Below, in pieces: positions 6,301 to 47,738 of a stretch of DNA of 64,000 nucleotides. Location: positions 18,917 to 82,916 of the forward strand of contig CAXIWS010000359.1 of NCBI GenBank assembly GCA_964036195.1. The letters run 5' to 3'. The notes below the pieces were generated by a model. The model had not been told where the DNA came from, made no database searches, and saw only the letters and a program-made list of their open reading frames with translations. Numbering within the stretch: the stretch's first letter is position 1; each line of letters opens with the position of its first letter. A program made the translations under genes and the position numbers. This DNA comes from Sphaerolaimus hirsutus (taxonomy: Eukaryota; Nematoda; Chromadorea; Monhysterida; Sphaerolaimidae).

Positions 6301-6621
6301 TTGGTTGATCTAGAAGCTGGTCAAATAAACCCAGGTGTCATTCACAGACCCTGTAAAGTGTAAAGTAAAGTGTAAAATGTTATGATAGAATGTCACATAA
6401 TTTGAAAACTGCTATGTCACTTTGCATAAAAAATTAAAGTTTTTTTCAAATAATGTGATATTCTATCATAATATTTCACAGGTTACTTTACACTTTACAG
6501 GGTTTGGGAATGGTCAGGTGGACTACTTATGGCTGACATTTCCCAGATAACACCAGTGAGGAATAATAATGTTTTTGGGCCCCTGAGCTCTACTCCCAGT
6601 CTGTTATATTTTTTATTATAA
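347..6621 (+). CDS. Spliced type I membrane glycoprotein with coiled-coil ectodomain, unknown family
   Basis: Hand-built model of 12 exons: 347-447, 2305-2494, 3102-3305, 3703-3829, 4004-4222, 4292-4522, 4587-5079, 5370-5565, 5825-5888, 5965-6137, 6229-6334 and 6518-6621. All junctions are GT-AG and frames agree, giving about 735 aa. Exon 1 encodes a hydrophobic signal peptide (starts MFAFFLTISL). The middle is long heptad-rich coiled coil with a dozen or more N-x-S/T sites and paired cysteines. Near the C-terminus are two hydrophobic stretches (IIGGLWLLGTLVFG and ALVTLLCTIG), then a Cys-rich, Lys-rich tail, as in a membrane anchor with a cytosolic tail. The weakest junction is the donor after 5565 (GTTAAA); the more obvious donor near 5545 breaks the frame. 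I do not recognise the family. It could be a host adhesion-type protein or an attachment/fusion-type protein of the neighbouring Polinton; the sequence alone does not decide. Confidence 0.6.
669..1203. mobile_element. hAT-like miniature inverted-repeat element
   Basis: Arms of about 145 bp (669-815 and 1058-1203) are near-perfect inverted copies. The ends read CAGGAGTGGGCAT on the left and, reverse-complemented, CAGGGATGGGCAT on the right, which is hAT-like. Flanking 8-mers (CACATATA and TACATCAA) match at only 5 of 8 positions, so the target duplication is uncertain. It sits inside intron 1 of the membrane-protein gene. Confidence 0.6.
1180..1945. repeat. Recent 383-bp tandem duplication
   Basis: Bases 1180-1562 and 1563-1945 are almost identical, differing at a handful of positions. 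The unit starts with the last ~24 bp of the preceding hAT-like element, so the duplication came after that insertion. Each unit also carries the C-rich CTCGAATTATCACCCCC-type repeat seen elsewhere in the window. Confidence 0.85.
1828..2150. repeat. Inverted repeat in intron 1
   Basis: The segment running from about 1828 to 1970 is repeated in inverse orientation at about 2018-2150. The arms contain the GAAATACCCCCTCCCCCGC block and TACTTTAATTTTTATCTAGC. This is probably a foldback or miniature element whose ends I could not fix. Confidence 0.6.
5080..5369. mobile_element. Hairpin intron made of one inverted-repeat element
   Basis: The whole intron between exons 7 and 8 of the membrane-protein gene folds on itself. 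The left arm begins at the donor (GTGGTGTTATAACTCATA) and the right arm ends TTATATCAC just before TATTAACAG, the acceptor. The arms run about 85-90 bp and share TGGATATGTACAGCTCC and AAAAAAGTACGCAAGTAACT. The donor GT is the element's own first two bases, as in introners, but the terminal sequence differs from the main introner family here. Confidence 0.7.
6335..6517. mobile_element. Introner 1 (intron of membrane-protein gene)
   Basis: 183-nt GT-AG intron whose ends are inverted repeats: ACCCTGTAAAGTGTAAAGTAA on the left, and the same sequence reverse-complemented before GGGTTTGGGAATGGTCAG on the right. The arms extend about 70 bp. Exon ends CAG, and the intron also ends CAG. Removal keeps the frame and leads to a stop at 6619-6621. 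Confidence 0.8.
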
Positions 6622-7807: not shown

Positions 7808-7809
7808 AA

Positions 7810-7923: not shown

Positions 7924-9476
7924 ATGGACAAAACTCCCAAGTTTCAAAAGAAAGTTAAGCGCCCACTGTTCCCGCCACATGAGGAGGACGAAACTGAGCA
8001 TTCCGATCAACCTGATGAAGAGGATGACCTCGAAGCACCGCGTCTGCCCAGAAAGCCTGTGAAACCTGTAAGGGCTGTTCCAAAAGTCAAGCGGATGAAT
8101 GCTGTTCAGTATGAAACTTCACCAGGTAGAGCTTTGAAAGGTTGCTTTTAGATACTGTTTGGGGTGAATGATGAATCTTTGCCAAAAACAGAACTTAAAA
8201 TGTTCCTTGACCACTGGTCACTTTTTTCATCTATTGGTCAATTGTCCAGTGGTCACTCTGTCTAATGGTTACTCCCTATAAATAGCTAGAAATAGGATCC
8301 AGTTTCTTTACAATCCAGTCTAAAGTGCAAGTGACCAGTGTAAAGTGCAAATGCAAGTGTTCACATAATTTAGAAACATTTTTTTCTACTCTCTCACTGT
8401 TTATTTTCAATAAGTGTTTTTTAAGGGGTTTTAAAGTGGTTCGTCATAGGAGTAATTCATAACATAGACATTATTTGTCTATACTAGCATCATTGCCTAG
8501 TTTTTAAATGAGTGATGCTGATTCTACTATGACTGACCAATGGTCAAAGATACATAAATAAATAAATAAATAATGTCCCTGCCATCTAATCTTTGCAGAA
8601 TCGGTGGATCAAGAGCTCGTTAAGCAGGAGACACAGTATGCAGCTGATTTTCAACAAAAGCAGGAACAGAAAAAACGGCAAGCTGTGGACAACGTCATCG
8701 GGTCAAAGATCCATTGGATTTCGAAAAGTTGCCGTTCGGAAGGATTCAGGTATGTGAGGGTTATATTAAGCTTATGGATAGGTAATTTCATTTCTCCTGT
8801 GTATAACTATGAGTTTTGCAAATTTAAAAAATTGCAAGACAATCTTCCTCAATAAATTTTTATGGAACTTATGATGTGTCCATAAAAAATGCTGTAATTT
8901 TCACATTACAGAATTCTCTTCAAGGACTCAATGCCGTTTTTGCAGGTGACATTCCCAAACTCTGTAAACATGAAATGTTGAATATCAGTTTTTTAAAAAA
9001 AAATTCAAAATGTGAAATTTATAAAGTTTAATGTGAGATCTCAGAAATCTCGATTTTTTATTCAGTTGATATTTGATCTTTTCATATAACCAGAGATGGG
9101 GAATGTCTGTTTAGATCGGCTCATTTGAATTCTGTCGAATTTTTTCAATATATAAGCCCGTGAGGAATCAGGGTTGGCAAAATGGTCCAAATATGCAATT
9201 CAAGTCGGTAGCAGAAATTCCACTTGGAGACAGCAAAATTTTTGACATTTTTGCTGGTAAATTTCGAGGTGTTTTCGAAGCTGCTATAGCTGAAGCAGAG
9301 GTAGGTTGACTTGTGACTTACACTATCACAAAAAAATGTTTTTGTGTATGTAAGGCACTTGCCTCCTACAGGAAAAGTTCGCCAATCACACTGCGAGGCT
9401 CGTAGAACAACAGGAAAAATATCAACAATCGCGTTTTGGAGGGAATTATGGTGGAAAGTTCAACAATTATGCTTGA
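7924..9476 (+). CDS. Spliced 225-aa protein of unknown function
   Basis: Five exons (7924-8125, 8599-8749, 8912-8945, 9115-9300, 9372-9476), all GT-AG and in frame. The N-terminus is basic (starts MDKTPKFQKKVKRPLF), then an acidic stretch (HEEDETEHSDQPDEEDD), a Pro/Lys/Arg segment, a Gln/Lys-rich helix, and a C-terminal part with LGDSKIFDIFAGKFRGVF. It ends in a Gly/Asn-rich tail. I do not recognise the family. Its place between the membrane-protein gene and the Polinton polymerase, on the same strand, and its TATA-led compact promoter, make it a candidate accessory gene of the Polinton, but a host origin is not excluded. Intron 3 is a diverged introner. Confidence 0.6.
8946..9114. mobile_element. 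Introner 2 (intron 3 of the 7924 gene)
   Basis: 169-nt intron. The left end GTGACATTCCCAAACTCTGT pairs imperfectly with the right end AGAGATGGGGAATGTCTG, and the intron closes with TTTAG. This is the most diverged of the copies; only the terminal ~20 bp are clearly related. Confidence 0.6.
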
Positions 9477-10244
9477 ACACCTCACTCACTTTTAAAGTGG
9501 TTTTTAATGTCTAAGATTCTCTTTATAAGTATTTATGGTAGTATTTATATTTATCGGTAATAATTATGTGTTTTTTTAATGGGGGGGTATGATTTATTTG
9601 CTATTTTCAAGTAAGTATATGTGATTTCTATGTACTGTCCATTAGAGAATAAGTGAATAAGGGAGAAATTAAGGTGTAATTCTCAAGGGCTGATTCAATT
9701 GCAAAAAAATTTTATGTGTAGTGACCGTCGGTCACTAGTGAATAAGGTAGCAATCATGAATTCATTAGTCAATATGTTCACGTTGTATTTAAGGGGGTCG
9801 TTTATCAATTGTTCACTAGTAAATAAAGCTGACCATCGGTCACTAGTGAATAAAGCTGACCATCGGTCACTAGTGAATAAAGCTGACCATCGGTCACGTG
9901 ATTAAAGCTGACCATCGGTCACTAGTAAATAAAGTTGTATTTGAGAATCCATAATCAATATGATTAAGCTGCATTCACATTCAAGGGGTTCATTTACCTA
10001 TTCTTCTGTAGTACTTTTCTGGAACTGATGGTAATATTTTATTGTTATACTTATCATTTAGTAGTTGCAGCTGTTTATAATAATATATATGGAATAATAA
10101 AATGATTAATAAATGAAATGATCCATTTTTATGTCAAGTTAAATGAGTTGAGACTCTATCTCATTGCTATATGAGATATATCTTGAAATTATTGATAAAT
10201 TTATTTCAATCATTATTTTTGATGTACTTTCAGAATAAGGTAAT
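9477..10244. repeat. Intergenic stretch with 27-bp palindrome-rich tandem repeats
   Basis: At 9812-9936 a 27-bp unit (GACCATCGGTCACTAGTGAA plus TAAAGCT) repeats about four times; each unit contains AATAAA and the self-complementary core GGTCACTAGTGA. A related palindrome, GTGACCGTCGGTCAC, lies at about 9719-9735. The AATAAA copies could serve 3' end formation for the upstream gene. No other gene signal seen. Confidence 0.7.
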
Positions 10245-13200
10245 ATGGTGAATTATTCTTGCGAAGTTTGCGGGGCATCCTTTCTTACAACATACATGAT
10301 TGGACGTCATATGGAACAGTCGCATCAATTGAAGAAAACCAATATCAGTGTTGATAAATCCGATGCCAATAATTGGATTTATAAAAGTGTTAGTGTGTTG
10401 ATTTTTTATTATAAATTTGCAAAAAATTTGTAAAAAATTTGCAAATTCATTTTTTTGCAGTGTGCAAAAAAATCATATTCAAATGTTCCATATCTCGACT
10501 TCAACATTGTGTCACCCCTTCAGAAACTGAATGACACTATGAATGGGAATAAAGGAAAAGCTGATGTTGTAGCAATGATAGATGAGGTAGTACAAAGACA
10601 AGTGAATAGTGAAAGTTTGAATGGTGAAATTTTAGAAAAACTCACTGAACTAAGCTTAAGGATGGAGAGAGTCATTCATCAAGTATGTGAATTATTTTGA
10701 GGAACATATAAGAGCTTTGTTATAAATTGGTTTAATTCTAGGTTGACCAACTTTATTCTGCTACCGCAAATATGCCTGGTCCATCTTCTGAAAATCAAAC
10801 GGGTCATCAGGCTGTTGAAAAACGCTCACGTGCTCCAAAACGACCCAAGAAAGCACCTGAACCAGTACAAGAGTTGGATAGTGATGAAGAACGTATGTTT
10901 CCACAATTATCTTCTGAATTAGCTAATAAGTATGGTTTTGGACACCTTCCATCCCCCATTTTTGCTAAACAGAATGCTGTCATTAATTCTGACCCAGAAT
11001 TAAGCTTTTTTCAACAAATGTATCAATATCAATATAAGCCGAGAATTACAATATACCAAAAGGGGCGTAAAATTGAATATCGTTTTCCTATTTTTGGTGT
11101 GTACAATGACAATCTCAGGCAATTGCTGATTCAACAGCTAAAGGCGTTTCTTGGTGCATACCCGAAAATATTCCGGCTCAAATGTCAAATCGGCTTTTTA
11201 TTAGTCTCGCGTGAAATGCCAGAAATAAATACTCGTTTTTTTCGTCAATCCTTCAATACCCAATGTTACGATGGTATAGTAAATGGCAATTTATATCTCA
11301 AATTTAATCAAAGTATTTCTGAATTATGTAGCGGTAATTGTGAATCATACTGTACCTTTATCAATGATATGTTTTCATCTGGTGCTGCTTATAAATCGCT
11401 TCCATTTTCTATTTCCTATATCGGAATCATTATGTAAACGTTTTTAAATACGTAGATTTAATTTTTTCAGAATCAACATGCTTTGGTGGAACACGTTCGT
11501 ATATAAGACGAATTATGCAAATGAAAATCAATACAAAAATTTTGGAATGCACTATTATTCTTGCATTTGCCGAATTCACAAAGCAGAAAATAAATAAAAA
11601 TGAATTGTCAGAATTGGTGGCTGAAATTGAATCAGCTACTGCACATGATTCATTGTACAAAGCTACTATGTTATTTAATACACCGATAAAAGTCTATCAT
11701 TCGTCTCTGAATGAAAAAATTTTTTATGAATCAAATATGTTCCAATCAAAATGGTTAAACAAGACACAAGCACAACTGCTATATCAGAAAAATGGTCAAA
11801 TTCGGCTCATTGTGGATTTGCATTTATTCCGGAAAACCTTCCAATGTACTAATTGTAGCTTAATTATTTCTAATCGCCATTCATATTGGAGACATAAAAG
11901 ATATAATTGTCTAGCATCTGCAAAGCGCCAAAAACGGTTTGTCCTTCCAATTCATATTTATATGAAATGATTTTCTGATCTAATTTGAAAGACCTTTTGA
12001 AAAAAACCTCTCAATCTGATCTGTACAGATTGAAAGCAAATCAAAAGGTGATTTCAATGGATGACAATGGGCTACCTAGGCTTGTAATTTCGGAATACGT
12101 AGCAGGTCGCTGGAGTGAACAACCAACCCTGATTGATCGATTAGAGGCACTGTTAGATAAGAAACCGCTTTACCATATAGAAAGCGAACACATTCCTGTA
12201 GATGATTTACCAGCTGAATTAATTGGCTTGTTAAACTTAAACACCTTTCTAACATATGACTTAGAAACAACAGCTGTCAAATCAAATCTTCCAATAGACA
12301 CCGCAAACTATTCGTTTATTGGTCGCCATGTACCGTTAATCATTACTGTTACTCGCGCAGACACAAATGAAACTAGAATATGGGAAGCTTCTAGTTTTTC
12401 CAATACCCAAATTGTAGAGTCATTTGTGCTATACTGTTTAGAAGTAGCACTGGAATTTACCCAGAAAAAGCGTGCATATTTAGCTGAATTTTTTCATTTC
12501 ATTACAAGTAAGAAGCAATTTACACAGAATGGTTTTGAAATGCAAAAATTGGTGGTTTTAGAAAAGCAATTATCTCAGCACATAAACACTACACCAATTT
12601 TTGGATATAATAGTGCTAGATTTGACCTACCTATATTGTTAAACTCTAAGCTGATTGAATATTTGTATTTGCATGATTTAAGTAGTGATGGTAAGCAGAA
12701 AATGCCTACTGCTATTAAAAAGGGTGAAAAGTATATAGTGTTGAAGTCCCCTCATCTAAATTTTTTAGACGCAATCGTGTTTGAGGGGGGTAGTCCATCG
12801 CTCAGTGATTCTTTACAGCAAACTTTTCCAAATGATACTTCTTTACATAAAAAATTTTTACCATATAAAGTTTTAAAAAAAGGTATCGCCTGTTTTTCTT
12901 ACGGAATTCCGGAATATGAAAGTTTTTTTGATGAAATGGCTTATACCAACACATTAGATATTGAATACAATGATTATATTAAAGCGCGACATAGATACAA
13001 AATGTCAAAAAATGAAGCGCTAGAATATTTGAACTTGAAAAAAATTCCTCAAGTTGGCAGAGAAAAGCATGCTAAAATAGTAGAAGCATGGAAAGAAAAA
13101 GGATTTACTTGCTTTAGGGACATATTAATTGATTACTGCATTAGTGATGTTAAGCCGCTAATTCGTTTTTTACAAACCCGCATACTTTCTTATTATATTA

Positions 13201-15666
13201 TTGCACAACAGTATTTACATGGTTTTGTAACAATTTCTAGTTTTGCATTTCATATTACTTATAATAGTATGCAAGAGAATCAAGCTCAGTTATTTTATAT
13301 TCCCGGTGAGCATTTGACAAACTTGATTCGTGCTAATTTGTTAGGTGGTATGACATTTATTTGTACCAAATTTGTTGAATTAGGTGTAACCAAAATTCGT
13401 CCATATGACTATGAAAACCCGAATGTAGCAAAGGCAATTCTGGGTTATGATGCTAATAGTCAGGTGCTTTTATAAAGCTCTTACTTATTATACAATTTTT
13501 AAAAAAACCTCTAATAACTTATTTATTATTACTTTTTAGTATCCATCGGTGATGTGTCAGAAACAATTCACTGGTCCGCCAATATATCGGTGTGCAGAGG
13601 ATAACTTTAAAGCTGATTTCATTCAGAGACATAAAATTTCACCACTTCAATATGTGGAATATGTGAATCGCACAGAAAATTGTGAATACATGCATTCACT
13701 ATGTAATAAGGGAGAAGTTTCAGTATTTTTAGAGAGTATACAGGAAGTATATAGACTAGATGGGTTTGTTTGTTAGGAAAATATACCTGTTGAAAAATAT
13801 GATACTTTTTTTGAAAAAATATTCATATTTTTCTTTACAGATATGGCGTCCGCCAGCAAAATGGTCGAATTGTTCCTGTTGCTGTTGAATTTTTTGAATG
13901 TAACGGTTCACATGGATTTTGTGGCAAAAATTCCTGTCTTTTCAAAAGACAGGCTAAAAATGATAAACATGTTTGGATAAATGGTTTATCACACCGTGAA
14001 AACAAACAAAACACTCAAATTAGAATAAAAAATCTGAAAAAGATTTATGGACGTAATTTTCATTTTGTCTGGTCATGTGAATGGATGCATATGACAAAAA
14101 CAAACCCAATAGCTAAAATGATCGTGAAACATTTTTCTATTGGACCAGCTTTTGTTCCAAATCAAGAGTATACTGAACGGGAAATTCTGGATGAAATTTT
14201 GAATGACAAAATCGAAGGGTTGGTGCTTGCATCTGCTTGTGTAAGGCTGAGATCTAGAAAAAAATTCGCTGATTACCCACCTATAGCGAAAAGAGAAAAC
14301 ATTTCTGTATCAATGCTCAGTCCAGTGCAACAAGCATATGCAAAAAAAATGGGGTTGCATTTATCAACCACTCGTTCACTGAACATACCAGGATTTTTCT
14401 CAGAAAATGTCCTGTTTACAACAGAAGAAATTAAACAATTAGTGTTTAATTACGATACAAAAATTTATAATATTAAAGAGATTTATCAATTTTCAACAAA
14501 TTTTGTATTGAAGCCGATCATGGAAAAACTTTTCAACATGCGGAGTGAGGCTAAAAAAAACAATCAACCTGCTTTAAGTATTAGTGCAAAGGTTCTCATG
14601 AATAGTGTATTTGGGAAGACTATTCAGAAAGTGCACTCATACAAAGATACATTTTTTGTGGATACCGATACTTCAGCAGGGGAACAAAAAATTGCAAAGG
14701 CGTTTTGCTCTCCGCATTTTGTCAGTGATCGTCATGTTAGTGAAAGCATTGCTGAATTATCAATGAAAAAGGAAAAAATTATACATAAACTACCTATAAT
14801 CGTTGGTTACTTTATTTTGGCTCATTCAAAACGCCAAACCCAAAACTTTGCTCATCAATTTTTGGGTAAATTTATTGATCCAAAAGATTACATTGTGTTG
14901 ATGTCAGATACCGATTCAATTTATGTAGCACTATCTCAGCCAACACTGGATGAATGTGTGTCACCAGAAAAACAACAGGCATTTCAAATAGCAAAGAAAG
15001 AATTGTTTACAAACCGGCTTTTTGGGTGGAAATTGGAGTGTGAAATAAAATTCCACGGAGGATTTGCAGCTCCACAAGAAAAGGTCATTTGATTAGATTA
15101 ATGTTCCCTGCGATTTTCTGAACAAATCTAGCCACTGTGCACTTTTTTTGAAAATTTGACCGGTGTCCACCTATTTTTAAAAAATCTGACCAATGTTCAC
15201 TCCATTTTTTGAATAACGAAACAATATCCATTCCATTTATTCTCACTCAAATACATCATCATAATGGTCAGCAAAAATAACTGTTGTGAAGACTAGAACC
15301 CTTTCTCATATGGTCACATTTTGAGCAAATTTTAAGTTATTTACTTTTACTCATAATGCTTATTTATAAACACAGGTATATGGTATTTACAAAAAATCAA
15401 GTGGAGGTGTTTATTACCAATATAAAGCTGCAACAAAAGGTGTCAACATGCGGAATGTGAACAACCATGAACTGTTTGAATACGATACTTTAAAAAAAAC
15501 CGTTTTTGGTGAAATTGAACCATTAAACTGTCAAGCAGTTAGTTTTCGAAACATTAAAGGTGGAATAGTCACAACAGAGTGTACTAAACAAGCAATGACC
15601 GGACTCAGTTTCAAACGCTATTTATTGGAAGACCAAATTAATACAGTACCACTCCCTAACCTTTAA
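10245..15666 (+). CDS. PolB: Polinton/Maverick protein-primed DNA polymerase B, eight exons
   Basis: Exons 10245-10388, 10461-10682, 10742-11381, 11471-11936, 12029-13463, 13540-13763, 13841-15083 and 15376-15666. All seven introns are GT-AG, with matching phases, giving about 1554 aa. N-terminus: a C2H2 finger (CEVCGASFLTTYMIGRHMEQSH), then a second Cys/His cluster near 11850 (CTNC...HRHKRYNC-like). Exonuclease motifs are TYDLETT and FGYNSARFDLPIL, with YCISDVKPL as the third. Polymerase motif A is cut by an intron: GYDANSQ ends one exon and YPSVM opens the next. Motif B is KVLMNSVFGKT and motif C is MSDTDSIY. It would replicate the element from a protein primer. Donors GTGCTG, GTGCTT and GTTTGT are non-consensus but recur. 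The 3' end overlaps the convergent gene by 11 bp. Confidence 0.9.
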
Positions 15667-16379
15667 ATTGCTGTTTGAAATAAAAACGTAATTTTGGATT
15701 CGGTACATTATCAGAATCCAAAATTTTAAAGCCATTCATATCTAATAAATGCAATAGTGCAAGTAACCCAGGAATTTCTGTAAAATTTGGTCTTGCAACA
15801 TTTTTCCGTTTTCTTTTATTCGATGTAATTAATTCAATGCATGTTTGTAGATTTGAACCTTCAAAACTTTTATTCATGATTTCAAATGAAAGATCTGGAT
15901 TTACTTTAAATGCAACTTCATGCAAACCTTCTAAAATTGTGATCACTTTTTCAGCATTTGGAACATTATTTTCTATCTTGGAAAAAATCTCTTCTGTCGT
16001 TAAATCTTTTGTTTGAAACCCTGTTGTTTTTCCATTTTCTAAATGATTTTGAGGAATGTCTTGTAACTTTTGTGTGGAGTCATGATGTATATTATTTGAA
16101 TCTGGTAATTGCTCATCTTTTGCTCCGCCATCTATTCCCTCTGTTGTAATGGGTTGAAATTCATCTAATTTTCCTGTAAACAAAATACAAACTGATCCAT
16201 TATATTTCAATATTCAAAAGAAAAAAACTACCCTCTGTAGAGACAGGTCCAGTCAATTTCTGATGTCGAATATTACGTTCATTTTGTTCCAAATTATGAA
16301 TTTTAGTTTTCAATTTTTTGTATTCATTAGCAGGTACCATAACAAATGGGTCAATTTCATAGTTTGCTTTTCCAGTCAT
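15656..16379 (-). CDS. Small Polinton protein beside the polymerase, two exons
   Basis: Starts at 16379 with MTGKANYEIDPFVMVPANEY; a 58-nt intron (16174-16231) joins in frame to the main exon, giving about 221 aa. The N-terminus, with VPANEYKKLK followed by a short coiled segment, and the C-terminus, with a basic KRKRKN patch and a folded-looking end (GLLALLHLLDMNGFKIL), resemble in layout the mid-size protein found next to ATPase genes in many invertebrate Polintons. The 358-aa protein at 54711 in the second element is the likely counterpart. Function is unknown; a virion-associated role is inference from neighbourhood (ATPase, protease and capsid genes follow on the same strand). Confidence 0.7.
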
Positions 16380-16382
16380 ATT

Positions 16383-17210
16383 TTATGAATTTTCACTCAA
16401 TGCAAAGCAAATAGGCGGGTAATCAGGTGTGTAAATCAAGCCGCTACGTAGTTTGTATTTTATATTTGTGCTAGTGGTATTTCTCTCTATTAATAGGTAA
16501 TTATATCCGTATTCTGTGAAACAAAGCTGCGCAATTTTATGAATGAGTCCACCTTTTCCAGCAAAATATCGCTTTTGAATTTCAGTTAAAACATTAGTGC
16601 CTACAGTAGATCTTGAAAGAAAAATATAATTTGCATTATCCAAGAGTGGCGTGAGAGACATGTGTGCATTACCACTACCAGAAATACTTTGTAATGTCAA
16701 AAAACACGATAAACTTTTGTGATGACAAATCCGCTCAAAATAATTACGTATTTCTGCATAAATAGCCTTAGATGTACGTATAATAGATCCAAAATCTTCA
16801 AATACCAATAATACATCTTCATGCTGATCACGAGTAGAAAACCATGTTAAATCTGTTACATCCCATGTGGCGTCAAAAACTTTGAAGCTTTCAAAGAAAT
16901 TCACAACATTTTCACATGCAGTTTTATACTGCTTAATTGTAACATCATCTAAAGCAAACAAAATCACACCCAACAAAATACGACTTGGACGTACTTCTCT
17001 CCAATTTTGTATCAGCTGAATAATAGTTGTCGTCTTATAACTCGATGATCCACCGATGTAAATAGCAGTGAAGTAATCACGTCCATTATTGGATAATGTC
17101 ATCTGATCTCTCTGACGAATTTTATTTGCCTGATTTTCTTCATCTTTTTGAACTTGCTCATCGAAATAAGCTTTCATTTTTGTTACAAATTGAGCTACTT
17201 TCGAATTCAT
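16383..17210 (-). CDS. FtsK/HerA-type genome-packaging ATPase
   Basis: 275 aa, intronless. Walker A is the variant IGGSSSYKTTTI (residues ~52-63), and Walker B is DVLLVFEDFG. A downstream SISGSGN segment and arginine-rich C-terminal part fit the A32-like ATPase family of Polintons. It would drive DNA into the capsid. The ATG overlaps the protease stop codon by 4 bp (17207-17210), suggesting a tightly packed viral-type arrangement despite the heavily spliced neighbours. Confidence 0.85.
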   Translation of the reverse strand: MNSKVAQFVTKMKAYFDEQVQKDEENQANKIRQRDQMTLSNNGRDYFTAIYIGGSSSYKTTTIIQLIQNWREVRPSRILLGVILFALDDVTIKQYKTACENVVNFFESFKVFDATWDVTDLTWFSTRDQHEDVLLVFEDFGSIIRTSKAIYAEIRNYFERICHHKSLSCFLTLQSISGSGNAHMSLTPLLDNANYIFLSRSTVGTNVLTEIQKRYFAGKGGLIHKIAQLCFTEYGYNYLLIERNTTSTNIKYKLRSGLIYTPDYPPICFALSENS

Positions 17211-17644
17211 AGAAATTGTTTAGCAAACCATTCCGATACTAATTTATCATTAACTATACCTGTGAATTTTTGAATTATTGTATTCCATGACTTACCTTCT
17301 AATAAATGGAAAATAATATAAAGACAATACTTAGCACATAAATGTGACAAAGACGGTTGAATTGAGCGTTTTAAAAATAATGGTTTCCCATACATATATA
17401 AAAACTCAAACAATTTAGTATATTGCTGTGGGTCTACCCCTTTTGGATCTATATAGCACACCATTCTTTGTGAATAATTTATATAGACAGCTGTAAAATG
17501 GTTCTGATGAAGTATAAAACAAAAATTTGGCTCATTTAAATTTAGCACTAAAGACTTACGTATATCAGCGAATGAAAAGATACCCCTATAAAACTTGGCA
17601 TAGCTAGAATTAATCACATAAGCATGCAACTCCTTTGCCTGCAT
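17207..17644 (-). CDS. Adenain-like cysteine protease
   Basis: 145 aa, intronless, shorter than adenovirus protease (about 200 aa). The catalytic order is visible: His in NHFTAVYI, Asp in CYIDPKG, Gln in SIQPSL and Cys in HLCAKYCLYIIF. The family processes capsid proteins during maturation. It starts 4 bp after the end of the major capsid gene and overlaps the ATPase start. The usual Cys-Gly pair is Cys-Ala here, which is a mild departure. Confidence 0.85.
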   Translation of the reverse strand: MQAKELHAYVINSSYAKFYRGIFSFADIRKSLVLNLNEPNFCFILHQNHFTAVYINYSQRMVCYIDPKGVDPQQYTKLFEFLYMYGKPLFLKRSIQPSLSHLCAKYCLYIIFHLLEGKSWNTIIQKFTGIVNDKLVSEWFAKQFL

Positions 17645-17647
17645 GAC

Positions 17648-19959
17648 TTAAGCACTTCCAAGTGAGACAAGATTCGAGATCTGTATCGATCGATGCACGT
17701 CTACTGTAATTATTTCTATGCGGCACTCCCAAACCCTATAAAGTGTAAAATAAAGTGACAAATATAAACAAAAAATGAAGCTAAGTAACAAAAAATACCA
17801 AAAGATAATGTTATTTCTGAACTTTCTGTTGGCAAAAAACAGTGTACTTTACTTTGCTGTATCATTTTGATTTGAGTTTACATTTAGTCGTTTACTTAAC
17901 AGTTTACAGAGTTTGGGACTGCCACCTGAAATAACTGCCACTGCAAACATATGATAAGTTTGTGTAGTTGGCGATGCCAATTCCGCGCGAAAACGTGTGA
18001 TACCTGCCAAAATTCAAAAATAAGCGTGACTAAGTTATGGCGCGAAAATATGGGATAGCCGCCAAAATTCAAAAAGCATCAAAAACATGTGTTGCAATTT
18101 CATACACGTTAAACAAACAAACCAGTGTCTGATGGTACATTAGATGCACTATTGGTTAACCCATGTTGCTGGAAGATGATAGGTACAACAAAATATCCAC
18201 CCGCAAAGTCTTGAAACTTAATTCCAGACTGACATCCAGGAATTCCATTTGTACCTAAGATTTCAAAGAAAAAATAAGTTTGAAGAAAGTTGTACAAAAC
18301 CAATAAAAAAATCACCTTGAAATTCAAGAAACTTGTTATACATATATTTCAGTACAATGTTTTGTTTCCCACCGCCTTCCGGAAGCATTTTTGTTATATA
18401 TGGATTTGTTGGGAAACGATCCACAGATTCAAACGATGCCTGACACGACACAATTCCCAAATTACTGTACAAATGTGGGTTCTTAGCGTAGCTCCCTGTA
18501 AAAAAAACTGTTATGAAAAAATAATTTATGTATTGATAAAAAGGTATAAAAACAACCTCTATCTCTATCTGCTTCAATAAAAAATATTGCTATCGCATCA
18601 GGTCTAGTTCCATTAATAATTTGGCTGTCAATGTGACTAATGCCACTATTTACTGACATGGGTCCAAAGATCTTAAATCCTTTGTACGAATAATTGATAA
18701 CGTTAGTCTGGTAGCAGTCGCAACCCCCATAAACTATAAAGTAAAGCAACGAATGCAAAACTGAAATAACAGTTGACATTTTTTGTTTTCAAATGAAATG
18801 TTGGTTTCCATTTGTCTTTACATTTGTCGCTTTAGCTTAGATATTATACAGGGATTGGGGCTCCTACCTGACTAAAGCGTCTAAAAATTTTGTCACACAG
18901 CTCTGGTTGGAGAGTATATCTTTCAATCAATAAGTCTGTGTCCAAAAATTCAATTTTTGGATCCAAATCTGCAACAGCAGTATTAAGTACCTTTGCCCAT
19001 GGCGCCCAACGTATTTCAACTGTTACTTTCATTCCAGGAATTAAAAGCTTTCTGCGAGTTAATGGAGTGGACATTAGTCAGTTGTTCTAAAAAATGAAGT
19101 GGAGATTCGTCACACCATCCAAAAAACAAGAAAAGTGAACCTCTGATACGCAAGCGGATAAAAAATCCGTGAAATTGTTTCAATTTCCATTGAACCATTT
19201 GCATTAAAACAGCATTTCCTACGGTAAGCAAATCCTGGATTATCATCATCCATTGCCTGGAAAAAAGTGTCACCTTAACAATCCTTACATTTCTTGAAAA
19301 GTATAGGTATCAACATACGTCAAAATTTCCCTCGTCTTTTGCATAAAACGCCACTTCTCGTTGGTAATTCTCTATAACATTTAAAAATAGTTCTAGGTCA
19401 ATTTTTTCAAGTCAGACATAACCAATATAAGCTTACCAAGTGTATCTAAGGTACTCCCAAAAGTAACCAAAAAATAATTGAGTTGACTTTGATTAGCTCC
19501 ATATCCTGAAATCACTTTATCGCCAACTCTGACAATAAGGTCCGAAATCATTGAATGAGGAAATGCATTAGCCAATGCTACCTTTGTATCTAAATAAGAG
19601 AAAAAAGTTTGATATGATTACACCAAGAATTTATCATGCTAACATACCGTTTGGTATTGTCTCTCCATTTTTGTTTACTATTTTGAAACGACAATGAAGA
19701 TAAAAATGGGGCGAAGTGAAGAGAGTTGTAGATTTCGGTATTTCAAATTGCACAAACTGTTCAGTGTGAACAGATGGTTTGATTATCAAATCAAGTTTAT
19801 TAGTATAAATAAACTGGGTTGGAAGATCACCATACAAGTCAGACCTGAAAAAAAGAATTCAGAATGAACAAGCAAGCATACAAAACAAAAAAATAATCAC
19901 AAGTCTTACCGTGCATCAAGCAAATTAGAGGACTGTTTTGGTACAATCCTTGTGTCCAT
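17648..19959 (-). CDS. Polinton major capsid protein, eleven exons
   Basis: Exons (minus): 19959-19910, 19844-19648, 19589-19437, 19371-19319, 19256 to about 19150, 19051-18868, 18707-18557, 18495-18316, 18254-18123, 18003-17926 and 17703-17648. Phases agree, giving about 446 aa. Recognised from layout and family features: opening with DLYGDLPTQ and PHFYLHCRFKIV, DDDNPGFAYRR then KLLIPGMKVTVEIRW at the jelly-roll junction, and the C-terminal strand RFRAELASPTTQ ending with VDVHRSIQIS, typical of double jelly-roll capsids. The donor of exon 5 is uncertain: GC|GTATCA near 19150 is preferred, and one near 19112 is possible. Two introns (18708-18867 and 17704-17925) are introners. For a capsid gene, ten introns is extraordinary. 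Confidence 0.8.
17704..17925. mobile_element. Introner 4 (last intron of capsid gene)
   Basis: 222-nt intron read on the minus strand. The left end is GTGGCAGTCCCAAACTCTGT right after exon CAG; the right inverted end is GGGTTTGGGAGTGCC, followed by 18 nt ending TTACAG. Here the element provides the donor, but the acceptor lies a little beyond its right end. Confidence 0.8.
18708..18867. mobile_element. Introner 3 (intron of capsid gene)
   Basis: 160-nt intron read on the minus strand. It starts GTAGGAGCCCCAATCCCTGT after exon CAG and ends GGGGTTGCGACTGCTAC followed by CAG. The two ends are imperfect inverted copies. Removing it keeps the capsid frame. Confidence 0.8.
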
Positions 19960-19961
19960 CT

Positions 19962-27284: not shown

Positions 27285-27299
27285 GTGACAACTTTTTAT

Positions 27300-33918: not shown

Positions 33919-36900
33919 TCAGTGGTCTGTGTCATCTGCATTGTCTGCTGGCAGTCCCAACCCGTGTATACTGTCAAGTAAACTGTCAAATGTCAAATGA
34001 AATGTAGACTAAACTGTCCAATGTCATGAAAAGTTCAGTATTACAATTTTTCCTATTTTTATTCTGATCGACACTTTACCTAGCATTTCAGTTTACATTT
34101 GACACTTTACTTGACACTTAACACGGGTTGCGACTGCCCCCTGAATCATCGGAAGCGTCATCTGAGTTTTCCGAGTCATCCTCTACGTCGTCATCGTCGT
34201 CGTCCTCCTCCTCGACGTCCTCCTCCTCGACGTCCTCCTCCTCCTCGACAATCTGTGTTTAACGTTAAACTGTGCATGGAATTAGTAAACTAGTGTGTGT
34301 AGGCACTATGTTCCTAATTTTTAATGTACGATACAGCAGTTTTCCCACGTTGCATTCAAAATAGGAATGTTTTATGTATGAAAGAGACATGAGTTTTCCC
34401 ACATTGCATTCAAAATAGGAATGTATTATGTATGAAACAGACATGAGTTTTCCCACGTTGCATTCAAAATAGGAATGTTTTATGTATGAAAGACAGGAGT
34501 TTTCCCACATTGCAATCAAAATAGGAAATTTTGTACGTATGAAACAGACAGGAGTTTTCCCACATTGCCATCAAAATAGTTTTCACAAAATATGTTGGAC
34601 TTACACTTCTCAACAGTAAAATGTTTAAACTCACTTCCAATCGGCCTGTGCTGCTTTTTTGACTGTGGTCGCGAGCCGCCGCGCCACCAGCAGCCGCCGC
34701 GCCACCAGCAGCCGCCGCGCCACCAGCAGCCGCCGCGCCACCAGCAGCCGCCGCGCCACCAGCAGCCGCCGCGCCACCAGCAGCCGCCGCGCCACCAGCA
34801 GCCGCCGTGCGACCGGCAGCCGCCGCGACGCCGCCTGTACCAGCTGCAGCGCCAGCGCGAGTCGCATCCTGAAGTTTTACTTCAATAAGTTGTCACAGTA
34901 CTTTACGTTTGAAATGGGATTCAGTTTTCAGTATCGTGATCGGTATTCACTTTTTGAGATTTCGGGATCGGGATTTTTGTTTCGTAATCAGGACCGGGAT
35001 TGTTTTTTTGAGATTTCGGGATTGTGATTGGGTTTTCAGGATAGGGATCGGGACTGCTAACTCCCTGAATTTCACGGGATCGGGATCGCGATCCCATTTG
35101 AAGCCTACACTACTTTGCACAGTATTTTAAAAAATACTATATAAGCTTTGAAAGTGGAACATAAAAAGTTATCTATGAGAAATAAATAATGAATTGAAAC
35201 TGCTGAAACTGACATTTTGCACACCGACGTGAGCCTGCGCACACTGCGCTGCCGCGCGCTGCCGCGCCGCATCTCGTTTGCAGGCTTCGCGCAGAATTCG
35301 CTGCTGGTATTCAGCTGACGCTGCATCGGAGCCGTAACCGTGCGATGTCACCTGACCACTTTTCCTTTCCGCCACCGCACTTTTTTGTCTCTGTTGAATG
35401 TTCTGCGATGCCTGTGTGAAAAGTTATGTCGTAAATTTAGTACAGGTTTTTGTAAGCAGCCTGATAGTACATAAATGTTAAATGAATAACCAACCATGTC
35501 GATATCGTCTAGATATGGAACTAGGCTGTCATCGCAAGTTGTCCCCTCTGGAAACGGATCCAGTGGCATGTTCGTCTGAAAGTTGTGACAGTGTGTCGAT
35601 ATTATAAACTTCGAAACTGTTTGCATGGCCATTACGACTACGCTGTCAACAAAAACTTTTTGTGGGAAAATGGAAACGGAATATTTGTTGTACATGCCGG
35701 AAAAGGGAAACGAAAAGTAATGTGCATTTGTCGGAAAACGGAAAAATGGAAGGCCTGAAAACGGAAACGGACAAAAAATTGCCTGGGGAAAGCGGAAAAT
35801 GGAAATTTGACAACGTCATTATGACTGACCTCCATTGGCGTGCGATTTGTGTCCATGGCCGGTGCCACCAACTGCAGCGACAGCGGTGATGGTATGTGTC
35901 CCAGTCGGCGACGGGATGAACCACCGGATGCGCCACCATCCGTGGAATTTCCGGCGCCACGAGCCGAAGTAGCACCAGACGGCGTCACCAGCGAGATGGC
36001 AGGAGCTGGACTGGCAGCGCACGTAACGCCACTGGCGCCAGTGCTCGGATTATTCTGCATTTAACAACAGTTTTCCCACGTTGCAATCAAAATCTGAATT
36101 TTTTATGCATGAAACAGAGAGTAGTTTTCCCATGTTGCAATCAAAATAGGAATTTATTATGCATGAAACAGAGATGAGTTTTCCCACGTTGCAATCAAAA
36201 TAAGAATTTCTTATGCATGAAACAGTAGTTTTCCCACGTTGCAATCAAAATCGGAATTTTTTATGCATGAAACAAAGAGGAGTTTTCCCATGTTGCAATC
36301 AAAATAGGAACATTTTATGTATCAAAAAGACAGCGAGTTTTCCCACGTTGCAGTAAATATGTGCATGCACATAAACTAACTTCCATGAAAATCTCCAGTG
36401 CATCTACCAAATCGGACAATTCCTGATTGGACAGCGAATTGATGGTGTCCATCCATTCGTCCAGGGTGCCCAGGAAGCGCCAGTGCTTGATGACGTTGCA
36501 GACACATTGCAAGTCGATGGTTTGCCTGGATCGTGTGTCCGAGCACCCCTACAATACGTAAATGTAGTGAAAATTGTAAAGGAAACTTGCAGTACAGAGT
36601 TTATAAAAATGCAACTGACACGTTTGGTATTTTCCATGGCTTTGTTGATGGTGCTGCACAATTCGCGCATTTGTGGCCTGTCCAATGCGTTTATTTGCTG
36701 TGCGAATTGGCGCAGCGACGCGTGCAGGAGCGGCCGTCCGAGCCTCTTGTGTGTGCACCCTGACTCTGTTATGTCATTTTGCATGGGCATTGGCTCTGAC
36801 ACTTTCACCGCAATTGCAACTTTTTCGGGATTCGGTTTTTCAGGTGTCAAACTTTCCGGTGTGAGCAATGCTGCCACTCTGCGCACAGTTCTGAACATCA

Positions 36901-39900: not shown

Positions 39901-42900
39901 TGACTTTTCGGGATTGGGATTGACTTTTCGGGATCGGGATCGGGATAGCGGTTTAGGTTCGGGATCGGGATTGGGATCCCGTTTTAACCATACAAACAAT
40001 TAAAATTGAAATGGTGCAGTCACTGAAACTAACGACTTGTGCCACGGAGAGCATCGGGCTGGGCGCGGCACGCGTGGGACCTTGGTAACCGATAGTAGCC
40101 GCCTGGTTGTCGACAACGCTGACAATTTGCACGTCATCGTCCATTTCCTGAAAAAAATTGACATTACAATGCGCATTTTGCAAACTTCCGCAAAAGTTGA
40201 ATAAATGTGAGAGAAGCGGTAGCAGCAGCAGCAGCAGCAGCAGTACTACAGCAGCATGAGCAACAACGACTTCACCCAGCGCCAGTTCACCGCCATGCCA
40301 CAAGATGGCAGGACAAGCAGGCCGAACACTGCCCTACCACAGCTGAACTTCGCGCAAACGTTTGCGGCACCCGAGTGGCGGCAGTGGCGCCTCCAGTCTT
40401 CATCAAGCAGGGTGCAGCCAACGCAAGTCACGAGTGCGACAAGTGCAGTTTCGACCGCGTCACCCATGAGCGTTGAGGAGAGTGCTCGTGAGGAGATGGG
40501 GAACTCAATGACACCCCTCCATGCAGTAAGTTTTCAGTTTTCCCACCATGCATACATGTTGTGACAAAAAAAGTTGCAATGTGTTCACCTTTTTATGCAG
40601 TTTTCCCACGGTGAATGCAATATGAGTAAAAAGACAGGAAATAATTCAGGAGTAGTTTTCCCACCATGCATACATGTTGTGACAAAAAAAGTTGCAATGT
40701 GTTCACCTTTTTATGCAGTTTTCCCACGGTGAATGCAATATGAGTAAAAAGATAGGAAATAATTCAGGAGTAGTTTTCCCACCATGCATACATGTTGTGA
40801 CAAAAACTTCTACATACAGATGGAGGAGGTGATGCATTTTTGTCGGACCGCGGATGCTCAATTGAAGATGGCCAACAACCGACTGAAGCTGGCTAAAACT
40901 GCCATGACCGAGTTTGAAGGCAAGGTGCCACTCCCAAACCGTGTAAAAATACAAGTAAAATGTAAAATGTCATGCAAAGTGAAAAGTCGTGTAAGATAAC
41001 CTGTAAGGCCATTTTATACGACTATGGACACTATTAATAACATTTGTACAATTTCCCTGGCTTTTTACACGGTATGTGAGTGTCACCAGGTGAACATGAT
41101 GACCAAAGCTGGTGAAGTCCTTGTGGCACACGTGAAGCGCACAGAGAAGAAAACAAACGCGTATTACAAAATGCTGCACACTCTTGTCCCCCCGGAGACC
41201 TTGCGCTGCCATGACGTGAACAATTTCATGGATGATTAGTTGATCATCATTGTAGGAACATAGCCATGACATTCAGTGTTCAGATCAGACGTAAAAACGA
41301 CAAAGGCGTCATCCTCTGGCTATGTACCTACATTCTTAATTGTAATACCACTGAAGTCTACCTATCGTGAAAAGTGATACTAAAAGGGCACCCACACAAA
41401 CAAGTGATGACTGAATTACACTGAATAAACGTACCTCGGGAGAATGTTGCGACTCTGTTGAGCTCTGCTGTGAAACTTGCTCGGACGGTGCAGCGGTACT
41501 GCTTTTGGCAGGTGATGGAACAACGTTGACGTAACACGCGTCAGTCTGAGAAAAACAGTTTATTGAAAGTTACTGTCATGGACAACGTAGTTGATGAGTA
41601 TGTAGTCTATGTTATTTCAGAAGTGCATGTGTTATGAAAAAGCTAATATGTTTAGTAAAATGAATCTTCTAATAAACTAAATGGGTAAATTTAGTAGAAT
41701 AACGAAAACACCAAAACACCAAAACACCAAAATACATGACACACAGAAACACAACACCTTTTAAACTTACAGCTGAATGGATAACACCTGACAATTGCAA
41801 CTTTGCTTTTTTATGTACAGCAATTTGCAATTAACACTATTCGCTAACCGATACGGCCGCAGGGGATGAATTCGCCTTACTTTCCAATTCGGGCTTCTCA
41901 GTCACTTTGGGCAGCTGTGCGGAAGTTGAAGTCACGCACCAGGTGTTCCCGCCTACAGCGTATTCAGTTCTCGCTGCGGACTCTTCATTTTCACCCACGA
42001 TGACCGTTTTCATCTGTGAAAAAGGGATATCAGTTAACAGAAGTGTAATATAATATTTGTAACATAAAAAACGTTTTATACTTATTTCACGACCTTTTTT
42101 TTTTGTTGTTCCTTTTCAAATGGCGATAACACGTCTGGATTCAGTAATGATCGCACGTGGGTGCCATTTCTGCCATACATCTTTTCAAATTGTGAAGGCA
42201 TCAAATACAGATCAGGTCGGTATTTCTGAAACATTTTAGACAATTTCTTCAGTTTTCAGACATGTCTTAAAGTTACAAAAAATCTAACAACGGTGCCATG
42301 ACACTGGTGACATTTTTCATCAAGAGGGTGGGTTGCCAATGAATCAGCCACATCGTTTCCGGCTTCCGGTGCCATTTTCCCCTTTTGAAATGTTTTATTT
42401 CATTTCAGAAGTTTTCCCACCAAGTATTCATTGTATGAAAACTTACAACAGTGCTCTCGCCATCGCAGGCTGAAGTCACGGTGACGTCTGCATCGGGAAG
42501 TGAAGACACAGTGTCAGCCGTGCCTGACTGCGCTTCGGCGGCCGGTTCACACGCGGGCTGAAATTGTGCATACAGAAGTAAACAAAATATGCAATTTTCC
42601 TACATGAAATGCAACATGTGAAAACTAACAGCGCCTTTGTCCTCAACCGCGTCCTGGGTGCAGAACATATCATCCTGGGATTGCTGTACCGCAGGTTGCG
42701 ACTTTGCCGCCTGTGAGTGTGGTGCACATGGTGATTTTGGTGATTGAATGGCGTCATGGCGCTGGCGCCATTGTATGGCGCCACGATATGGCGCCATTGG
42801 CGTCAGCGCTTTCAGTAGGGTGGGTGTGGGTTTGGGGGGGGGGGTTGCCCGAACACCAATCCGTAACTAACCACGTCAACATTCTCTGCATCAGTGCTGA

Positions 42901-44832: not shown

Positions 44833-47738
44833 ATGGCGGACGAACCGCAAAACGCGCCGCCTAACGGGGCGCAAAACGCGCCGCAAAATGCGGCACAAAA
44901 CGAAATAGAACTAGAGCGCCTAAATAGAATAATTGACGGTCACGTCGATGGCTCAGCGCCGTTGACTGATCAACAGCGCCACTGTATTTTAGTGTCAATT
45001 ATTGGTCTGGCAGCTACTGTATTTGATTATGAAGATGACCAGCAGGTGACACTCCCACACACTGGAAAATGTCATGTAAAATGTCTAATGTCCTGTAACA
45101 TAGGCATTTAGCAGTGCATGAACATACATTTTACACGCCATTTTAAAGTGTCTGGGACTGTCCCCAGGACAGCGATGATGACGATGAAGACGACGGCGAT
45201 ACTATGAAGAAAAAGCGCTATATGTGTCCATTTATGGAGGATAGAGTTGGCTCGCGGGGCCGCTATTGGCGTGCGGTTCTCGTAGCGAAAAATACAGACC
45301 CAAAGTGGTTCTACAAAATTAGCCGGGTGAGTATAACTTTATATTGTTAAATATTCACTGTTCACTCAGTTCACAGGTATTTTGAATAATTTACACAACA
45401 ATTATCAACTTTTCACTTTTTTCACTTTTTTGTTTACTTTTCACAAACGACATGTACAACTGTTGTTTTACTTTCAGTTGTGGCCATCGGAATTTGAAGA
45501 GCTCCATGAAAAGTTGACTTCTGTGAACCCAGCGACTGGCCAACCGTATCTGCGACAGCGGGACAAAAAGAGACACAGAGCGGTCATTACTACAGAGATG
45601 AGGCTGTTCTATTTTTTGTACATTCTGGGCAATGGCAGGGAAGTTGATGATGCTGCTGGTACTTCGCAGGTACACACATAAAATATTTTAATTTTTTTTC
45701 TGCCATACAATTTTTTATGACACTTTCAGATAAGTGCCAGTAGTATACGTACCATCATCGATGAAGTGTCACATGCCATCGTGTCAGCTTTGCAAGACTG
45801 CATGAAGAAAATTGGATCAGACAGCAGGCAAATGAACAATTATGCGCTAAATTTTTGGAAAATGTGGCAAATCCCAAACGCTGTTGGCAGTTTGGACGGG
45901 AAGCACATTCGCATACGGAGACCAAAGAGTAAGTACAATGAATTGCTGTTTATCCTAAGTGAAAAATGCTATAATTAAAAATAATACAATTTGTACATCT
46001 TAAAAGAATATTATGAGTTTTCACAATGTGCATGCATCTTGATAATATTCCTATGATAATAAGCTTTTTTTACAATGTACCAAGCAGTTTTCCCATTTGT
46101 CAGTCATTATGTGAACAGTTTGCATACACATTGTGAAAACTGGCGACACGTGGCGACACGTGGCGACACGTGGCGACACGTGGCGACAAGAAATGTCGCC
46201 ACACGTGTCGCCACTCGTGTCGCCAGTTTTCACAATATGCACGCCACTGTGGAAAACTGTCGCCATGGCGACAGAAATGGCTACATTTTGTCGCCATTTC
46301 TGTCGCCATGTCGGTGAGTTTTCACACGCGTGGCCACTTTTAAAAATTATCTTTAAGGGAGAAATGAAAGGAATTTATGTCTGAAATTTGGAGGTCATAT
46401 ACAGAATTTATTCCTCTATTTTTGGTAGAGAGATGAGCACTTGGCGATATGTATTAAATGATTTAAAATTTTTTAAATTTTTTGAGTTTTCACACCGTTT
46501 TTATGGCGACAACCATGGCGACAGTAAATAAATTGTAGTTGGACCCAAATAACATCATGTTAGGAAAACTTAAATGAACTTTGACATTATATTTGTTACA
46601 TGTTTAAAGGTAAAAATTTAACTTTTCAGAGAGTGGCACACGTTACCACTGCTTCAAAGGATTTTATTCAGTGATACTGTTTATATCAGCATCCGCGGAC
46701 CTGCAAATCCAATATGTTGATATTGGGATGCCCGGTAGCCAGTCTGACAGCACGGTGTTGCACACATCACAGTTTGGCGAGGATTTGAGGTAAGCAAATA
46801 AACTGATAAATCATTACATTTTACTATTTTACATTTCAAATTACTTTGTAATGTATACATACTTTACAGCAACGGACGCTTGGTGATGCCAAAACCGTGC
46901 CTCCTTCCGGGAATGCCAAATGAACCGGACAATTACCTTCCGAGCTATTTCATTGCGGACCAGGGGTTCGCATTGACAAAATGGTGCATGGTTCCATACA
47001 GCGTGCAAAATGAGGCTGACCAAAGGCATTTTAATTACAGGTTACATATTTTCCTAAATTGTTGATGCATACATATAAATAATTATGATTTCATTACAGA
47101 TTGTCTCGAGCCCGCCGCGCTGTGGAGTGTGTTTTCGGGGTATTGGCGGCGCGCTGGCGGATACTGCTGACAACTATCGCGATGGAACCGGAAAGAGTCA
47201 GCAGGCTGATCATGGCCGCCTGTTATCTACACAATTGGTTGAAAAAGATTAGGGGCACAAATGTAGAGGACCATTTTGACCAGGTTGCAGTCACAAACTG
47301 TGTAAAATACCACTGATAAATGTCAAATGTAATGCAAACTGTCAAAAGTCATGTAAAACGCACTTGTCATGTGACTTTTGACACTTTGCATGACATTAGA
47401 CATTTTTCACTGCATTTTACACAGTTTGTGACTGCCACCAGATGGGGAATGAGAAACCACCGCTGCGCGCCCCAGATGAACAAACGCTTCGCGACCGCAC
47501 AGTTTGTTTTCTTTTTGTTTTAGTTTTACATTTATCACTGTTTTGACATGTTTTTATTACAAAAAATGTATGCTAAATAATGCAGTTGGACTGGAGGGAT
47601 GCATATGACGGGCTGGATAACGTGCAACATGGTGATCAACGACGCGAGCGTGACCACAGAGGGCTGAGAGAGCAACTGAAGGAGTGGATGAAGACTCCAG
47701 AGGGGGTTGTGCCGTGGATAAATTGGCGGAATTGTTGA
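44833..47738 (+). CDS. PIF/Harbinger-type DDE transposase, spliced and apparently intact
   Basis: Exons 44833-45045, 45168-45326, 45478-45669, 45730-45928, 46630-46789, 46870-47040, 47100-47283, 47442 to about 47501, and about 47584-47738. All are GT-AG with consistent phases. After an Asn/Ala/Gln-rich N-terminus and an acidic stretch come the DDE domain landmarks: D in GSLDGKHIRIRR, D in YVDIGMPGSQSDS, and E in RRAVECVFGVLAARWRIL, followed by AACYLHNWL. This is the DDE_Tnp_4/HARBI1 fold. It cuts and pastes DNA by recognising terminal repeats, here plausibly the pair at 32678 and 48624. Two introns are introners. A domesticated HARBI1-like host gene is the alternative. Confidence 0.85.
45046..45167. 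mobile_element. Introner 7 (intron 1 of transposase)
   Basis: 122-nt intron, starting GTGACACTCCCACACACTGG after exon CAG and ending AGTGTCTGGGACTGTCCC followed by CAG. Interior inverted words GTAAAATG and CATTTTAC. Splicing joins two acidic codons in frame. Confidence 0.85.
46130..46330. repeat. TGGCGACACG direct and inverted repeats in transposase intron
   Basis: Four direct copies of TGGCGACACG are followed by inverted TGTCGCCA copies and flanked by CATTGTGAAAACTGGCGACA. The motif is the same as at the left end of the element (32513-32945). Confidence 0.8.
47284..47441. mobile_element. Introner 8, best-preserved copy (intron of transposase)
   Basis: 158-nt intron with about 75-bp arms: left GTTGCAGTCACAAACTGTGT, right ACACAGTTTGTGACTGCCAC, then CAG. 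The exon also ends CAG, so CAG flanks the element on both sides. The interior words CATGCAAAGTGTCAAAAGTCA recur at 2656-2700 and 2877-2925 in intron 2 of the membrane-protein gene. Confidence 0.9.

Follow-up and report, generated by a model that had tools for sequence, protein, structure and literature searches.

Eight segments in a 64,000-nucleotide stretch of the genome of the nematode Sphaerolaimus hirsutus (contig CAXIWS010000359.1, positions 18,917 to 82,916; this whole stretch is hereafter the window) are very probably diverged members of a large non-autonomous DNA transposon family acting as introners, a leading candidate for the process by which new introns arise in bulk. The segments genuinely represent a single inverted-repeat DNA element that makes a 3-bp duplication, and copies of the family that lie in coding sequence begin with GT on the sense strand far more often than expected. 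New here is that the duplicated triplet at the 3′ side is CTG as well as CAG. Two unlike element ends and two duplicates amount to a natural experiment, in which one transposon supplies four splice-site combinations and the strength of selection on donor and acceptor is therefore directly readable. If CTG does serve as an acceptor, the AG rule would be relaxed in this organism, and measurably so, copy by copy.

Eight copies of one inverted-repeat element

A first-pass annotation of the window had picked out the eight segments, in unrelated genes and on both strands, as introns spread by insertion, with ends that read as a sequence and its complement. The shared ends are borne out: the common end, GTGGCAGTCCCAAACC, has nine matches in the window at three or fewer mismatches, compared with a mean of 0.21 and a maximum of 2 in 100 shuffles. 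The segments are indeed inverted-repeat elements, and the genome sample below resolves two unlike ends. A scan of the window for facing ends no more than 450 bp apart, using a matrix derived from the same eight copies, returned 31 pairs at the strictest cut-off (Markov null mean 4.6, largest 18), including all eight reported copies. The remaining pairs are weaker, share an end with a reported copy or lie within a tandem repeat at about 34.7 kb, and no ninth copy was accepted.

Less the duplicated triplet, the elements measure 119–206 bp, and at seven of the eight sites the frame is open again once the element and one duplicate are excised. E1 (element 6335..6514; intron 6335-6517, including the 3′ CAG duplicate; plus strand) lies in phase 1 in the tail of a membrane-protein-like gene without a Pfam name, the frame running ...EAGQINP(G)^GLLMADIS across the junction. 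E2 (element 8946..9110; intron 8946-9114, with a 3′ TAG; plus strand) and E6 (element 40925..41086; intron 40925-41089, with flanks AAG and CAG; plus strand) interrupt unnamed genes in phase 0, the former within ...DSMPFLQ^IGSFEF. E4 (element 18711..18867; intron 18708-18867; minus strand) lies, also in phase 0, in a multi-exon capsid-like gene of a Polinton-like element, termed A. E5 (element 33948..34140; segment 33945-34140; minus strand) lies in phase 1 in the acidic tail of an unnamed gene (...SDDS^DNADDTDH, then stop). E3 (element 17720..17925, reported as 17704-17925; minus strand) is the exception to the rule, claimed for all eight, that removal keeps the frame: it is non-coding, between the protease-like and capsid-like genes of element A, and no coding frame with support was found at its site.

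The last two copies, E7 (element 45046..45164; intron 45046-45167) and E8 (element 47284..47438; intron 47284-47441), both on the plus strand and in phase 0, form introns 1 and 7 of a Harbinger (DDE_Tnp_4) transposase gene (44833..47738, plus strand) of nine exons. Once both introners and six ordinary introns are removed, this gene encodes a stop-free protein of 496 amino acids; with the introners retained, stops follow after 21 and 10 codons. In Pfam, two exons of the gene match DDE_Tnp_4 (2.8e-8 and 7.6e-6), and among 63 homologues the local alignment crosses the second introner junction in 30, often gapped in a poorly conserved stretch.

As first reported, the borders read 5′ GT in seven of eight segments and 3′ AG in all eight; 33945-34140 is not a GT-AG intron because its first bases are GG. 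On the sense strand, which for the 17704 copy is assumed from the adjoining genes, the triplet upstream of the junction is CAG in seven copies and AAG in one (40925), and the 3′ triplet is CAG except for imperfect, TAG-like triplets at 8946 and 17704. All eight copies are of CAG type (p 0.004; 7/7 for coding copies, p 0.008). For comparison, 13 ordinary introns of the window (six of the Harbinger gene, seven of the capsid-like gene) were delimited by eye; exons end in CAG before 2 of these 13 and before 7 of the 8 introners (p 0.002), and the left and right triplets are the same in 5 of 7 coding introners, in excess over the ordinary introns (p 0.02).

Each window element folds into one long hairpin of −41 to −88 kcal/mol (E1, −87.6 kcal/mol), and the two arms are more alike within a copy than between copies (matched by 2 and 1 of 40,320 permutations; in the six copies without indels, 185/240 cells are paired, matched by 2/720 permutations). 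Such likeness can mean selection on the hairpin, homogenization of the arms or the presence of several sub-families. A search against Rfam gave 13 matches, all under the gathering scores and mostly to microRNA-like models. In the interiors of E1–E8, AAATGTAA and AAGTAAA words, possibly transposase-binding repeats, are about 16 times as frequent as elsewhere in the window. Other inverted repeats in the window, with arms of up to 153 nt and up to 99% complementarity, are not introner copies (664-1208, 1486-2174, 5111-5331, 6797-7146, 22694-22959 and 32018-32429).

A genome-wide family that favours GT in coding sequence

The window belongs to an assembly of 348 Mb in 762 contigs, of which the largest seen has 34 Mb. 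A genome search for further copies had been set beforehand as a test that could refute the family and did not do so, as copies are abundant: the 14-base end word GGCAGTCCCAAACC, allowing one mismatch, has 4,328 and 4,319 matches on the two strands (8,647 in all), compared with 16 and 15 (31) for the reversed word, and CWGGTGCCAGTCCCAGACC, an R end preceded by CWG (CAG or CTG), has 794 and 778 exact matches (1,572), compared with none for the control. The introner end has no relatives in the collections of viral contigs and genome contigs searched. For closer study we fetched all 100 listed GGCAGTCCCAAACC places (L001–L100), a sample biased to young copies in that every locus holds the exact L-end word. 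A facing end occurs within 650 bp at 86 loci, the other 14 being dropped before counting.

The sampled elements, about 120–620 bp long, have two related but unlike ends, L (GGGGCAGTCCCAAACCCTG) and R (GTGCCAGTCCCAGACCCTG); in a first batch of 58, the L end begins GG in 42 and the R end begins GT in 45. Allowing a border shift of up to 2 nt, the flanks of the 86 copies are CTG/CTG in 31, CAG/CAG in 22, CTG/CAG in 9, CAG/CTG in 5 and others in 19; identical CWG triplets therefore bound 53 copies, the target is mostly CWG and the duplication is 3 bp. The two triplets are about equally frequent at 100 R ends listed of the 1,572 (52 CAG, 48 CTG, counted by eye). GC content is 0.488 in the 100 bp adjoining 58 insertions and about 0.41 from 200 bp outward. 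Mixed CAG and CTG flanks, seen in 14/86 copies (L001, L006, L016, L028, L030, L050 and others), may stem from a mutation in one of the duplicates or from a mismatch during insertion. Two loci, L022 and L051, have ATG on both sides, so the target may be wider than CWG; L022 also carries inner palindromes of GTATCCAAATCTTAT.

Which copies lie in coding sequence was judged with a small home-made codon model, which replaced open reading frame (ORF) length because the latter separated coding from non-coding flanks poorly (means of 92 and 98 codons across junctions, compared with 72 at control sites). The final model was trained on the Harbinger gene of the window and nine sampled loci, each being excluded from training for its own score, and its cut-off of 12.6 is the 90th percentile of the null from a first model, itself trained partly on the same loci. 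By this measure 37 of the 86 sites were called coding, compared with 7.6% of 880 sites drawn at random from those loci, a figure that uses the background from 88 loci. Removal of listed duplicates leaves 35 coding calls, 27 with the R end and 8 with the L end first; these still contain the look-alike pairs L062/L098 and L099/L100, all four with GT and CAG.

On the sense strand, 29 of the 35 coding copies start with GT, where the ends by themselves predict 47% (base rate 0.471; p 1.4e-5), and outside the training loci the count is 20/26 (p 0.0019). Even L ends, of which only 11/86 read GT overall, do so in three of the eight L-first coding copies (L038, L042 and L085). This excess looks like the signature that selection for a splice donor would leave and therefore points to a large introner family under selection for splicing. 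Together with the frames restored on exact excision, it supports the view of the first-pass annotation that an introner family has inserted itself in unrelated genes on either strand. Its further suggestion, that the introns are concentrated in the genes of selfish elements, finds no support: a Polinton-like element or the Harbinger gene houses four of the eight window copies, but such elements fill the window, and a concentration is not shown because sampled genome copies occur in ordinary genes too, with Sugar_tr, TMEM144, ASC sodium channel and Reeler domains across the junction. At L019 a Cation_efflux match (E 2e-5, just under the Pfam cut-off) lies beside the junction, wholly downstream of it in a protein joined one base off.

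We propose that the element inserts at a CWG trinucleotide and duplicates it, moved by a transposase that would be supplied in trans. On the sense strand the resulting arrangement, CWG|GT...|CWG, would place a 5′ splice site in the GT of the element tip, with the upstream CWG as the exon end, and a 3′ splice site in the downstream duplicate. The intron would then consist of the element plus one duplicate, and the protein would be left unaltered.

The family could instead be an ordinary one of miniature inverted-repeat transposable elements (MITEs), in which genic copies are unspliced disruptions and restoration of the frame records precise insertion only. A frame is restored, after all, on removing any insert that carries a 3-bp duplication, and 49 of the 86 sampled copies were not called coding. 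The coding copies are nevertheless strongly GT-first, intact domains flank four of them, and the two copies in the Harbinger gene lie between exons that otherwise give one open protein of 496 amino acids; we consider an ordinary MITE family highly improbable.

Several observations weigh against the introner reading. Of the 35 coding calls, 6 have a sense 5′ end other than GT, and at L019 the codon model preferred the strand opposite to that of the Cation_efflux match, below the margin used. Among the window copies, the excess of equal left and right triplets is not clear over all eight (5/8, p 0.056). The introners also lack a pyrimidine tract, the pyrimidine fraction before the 3′ end being 0.49 in the seven coding introners and 0.69 in the ordinary introns (p 0.0065). 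One paralogue search found no empty site, the 39 places that match the end of the Harbinger gene all sharing part of the introner.

CTG as a candidate 3′ splice site

The 3′ triplet of the 35 coding copies is CAG in 19, CTG in 12 and another in 4. GT starts 16 of the 19 CAG copies and all 12 CTG copies (p 1.2e-4; 8/8 outside the training set, p 0.0024). In ten of the 12, CTG stands on either side, the upstream triplet of the others being TTG at L012 and CAG at L050. Domain matches span the junction without net gap at L014 (Sugar_tr, 2.8e-15, with a PDB match to a xylose symporter at 2.3e-8), L042 (TMEM144, 5.9e-28) and L069 (ASC, 1e-6), and at L060 a Reeler match (1.4e-8) spans it with eight residues more than the profile. 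The match of L012 to a family-2 AP endonuclease stops about six residues short of the junction, L038, L058 and L079 have no match in Pfam, and a Cadherin match in the sampled loci (0.012) is under its cut-off. By their usual distribution, the ASC, Reeler and Cadherin matches suggest that the host is an animal. Retention of the element would bring 1 to 8 in-frame stops into each of the ten CTG copies checked.

If spliced exactly, the CTG introns end in TG. An AG does lie 18–20 nt upstream of the CTG junction in 12/12 copies, in seven of them as TTTTACAG (by eye). Its use as the acceptor was judged unlikely because it would shift the frame in ten of the 12 copies, leaving 19 nt in nine copies and 20 in L079 when paired with a GT taken at the element tip; in L064 and L069 it leaves 18 nt (counted by eye), and there the frame does not decide. 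In human genes, no TG acceptor lies farther than 28 nt from an AG acceptor, and this suggests that the AG defines the intron first and that the TG may be chosen later (PMC2374985).

On this basis we suggest that the transposon made CTG a working 3′ splice site across the genome, a proposal that we hold to be evenly poised between right and wrong. The GT of the element and its near-end AG would serve early recognition, after which the hairpin would bring both ends together and so pick the terminal CWG, be it CAG or CTG, as the joining site. TG introns would arise about as often as AG introns, and old ones would drift to CAG or survive as CAG.

The eight diverged, and probably old, window copies are all of CAG type, compared with 15 CAG to 12 CTG in the sample at an earlier stage of the count (Fisher p 0.03), a point against our proposal and one because of which CTG may be a weaker or short-lived site. 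It would also fit a family in which only copies with a CAG duplicate are spliced and CTG copies in coding sequence represent insertions that are recent or neutral, alleles, or broken copies of genes, as would the observation that human genes show TG acceptors solely next to an AG acceptor (PMC2374985). Against this stands the GT at the start of every one of the 12 coding CTG copies, a bias that is hard to account for without splicing. Nor are CTG copies nearer to the consensus than CAG copies (1.9 and 1.3 facing-end mismatches, respectively; p 0.16), and exclusion of CTG from coding sites would yield an excess of CAG, whereas the listed R ends divide 52 to 48. We take splicing of CAG copies alone to be a serious possibility, albeit one that we doubt.

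Host elements and relation to known systems

A portion of one introner has, in addition, been amplified within deletion derivatives of the Harbinger transposon. The end of the Harbinger gene, starting within the introner, recurs at 39 other places in the genome at 90–92% identity (among 40 scored of 2,007 first-look candidates). In the four that were read (L101–L104) the middle of the gene is absent and the right arm of E8 and the last exons are kept. Because the copies keep this arm, the introner was already in the Harbinger element before it multiplied as a deletion derivative.

Polinton-like element A (10239..22597, approximate bounds) carries PolB pieces on the plus strand and ATPase-, protease-, capsid-, minor-capsid-like and integrase ORFs on the minus strand. 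Pfam supports the polymerase (DNA_pol_B_2, 37.9 bits, cut-off 25.8, and 24.0 bits), the integrase match falling under its cut-off (rve, 24.5, cut-off 32.6); the other ORFs bear names that we presume from their position. No terminal repeats were found, nor distant inverted repeats of at least 40 nt around the element. The gene that holds E4 (18112-19940, minus strand) has, besides this introner, seven ordinary introns of 58–65 nt (by eye). We tentatively take it to be a capsid gene from gene order and weak similarity, two of its exons weakly matching a 531-amino-acid capsid-like ORF of a second Polinton-like element, B (E 7.8e-4 and 0.006).

Element B (48996-61505) contains PolB (51416-53620) and rve integrase (55717-56817) genes, both over the Pfam cut-offs, and AAA-like and protease-like ORFs under them. 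It consists of long open frames, whereas element A is intron-rich. An AlphaFold model of its capsid-like ORF was uninformative (mean predicted local distance difference test score of 32). Of the Polinton-like ORFs of the window, the PolB ORFs have no relatives in the phage and viral-contig collections searched, and the ATPase-like and capsid-like ORFs have none in the protein database.

Among transposons, PIF/Harbinger MITEs duplicate TWA, and CACTA/EnSpm elements have terminal inverted repeats beginning CACTA/G and a 3-bp target-site duplication. The present family shares the 3-bp duplication with the latter but not the start of the repeat, and its duplicate is CWG; the duplication and the tip sequence set it apart both from typical Harbinger MITEs and from CACTA elements.

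Of known hairpin introns, the nonconventional introns of euglenids resemble those described here in an end-pairing hairpin, a stem with CAG/CTG, direct repeats at the borders and a proposed MITE origin (PMC4770533, PMC11170887). Excision without the ordinary spliceosome, as proposed for euglenids, would agree with the end-to-end hairpins, the better match of arms within copies and the CTG acceptors. However, CAG and CTG are paired at +5..+7 and −10..−8, as read from E8 only, and not at the +4..+6 and −8..−6 of the euglenid stem. The strong preference for a 5′ GT points to U1-type recognition, and ordinary introns of the window have T-rich 3′ ends, in contrast to the C-rich intron 3′ ends of Euglena gracilis (PMC4770533, PMC11170887). 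Because stem position and splice signals differ we did not adopt the euglenid type, and we regard such excision as improbable here.

In Amoebophrya, introner elements likewise have inverted repeats (8–20 nt), direct repeats (3–5 nt) over the exon borders, a border-joining hairpin and non-canonical borders, but they have no family-specific inverted repeats and the borders are mostly AG-A(N), unlike the one family with recognizable ends and GT donors seen here (PMC7789003). In tunicates, introner transposons with weak splice sites are named as a possible source of the splice-site divergence of non-canonical introns (PMC13326754); here donors stay GT and only the acceptor varies between CAG and CTG. 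Human TG-AG tandem acceptors offer a precedent for TG as the 3′ site of a U2 intron, with an AG within 28 nt, as here 18–20 nt before CTG, yet the human TG is an alternative site only and here it would be the main in-frame site in 10/12 copies (PMC2374985).

Capsid genes have harboured introners before: mirusvirus genes contain 69 introner candidates, 21 of them in the major capsid protein gene (PMC12768974), a likeness shared by the one copy in the capsid-like gene of element A. The first-pass annotation took the family for undescribed; introners in virus-like capsid genes are already on record from mirusviruses. The main text of the mirusvirus paper does not use the terms ‘terminal inverted’ or ‘target site’, and both features are present here. 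In the literature collection searched, our search on introner, virus and capsid returned nothing besides that paper (PMC12768974), and found no paper that joins introners with Polintons, nor introns with Maverick, capsid and intron gain.

The family shows three features of introners: introns in unrelated genes that are alike up to their splice borders, removal that keeps the frame, and, as in most introner families, signs of DNA transposition in the form of terminal inverted repeats and target-site duplication. Gozashti et al. (2022) describe introner families, similar introns with ends at the splice boundary, of which many have terminal inverted repeats and short target-site duplications, with a preference for genes and GC-rich sites, and report introners in only two animal groups (PMC9860276). 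The present elements resemble the class in that survey in which the 5′ splice site comes with the element and the 3′ site is provided by the target-site duplication. They appear to differ from that class (PMC9860276) in the CWG duplicate, the two unlike ends of which one starts GT, CTG besides CAG at the 3′ end, and the thousands of copies in an animal genome.

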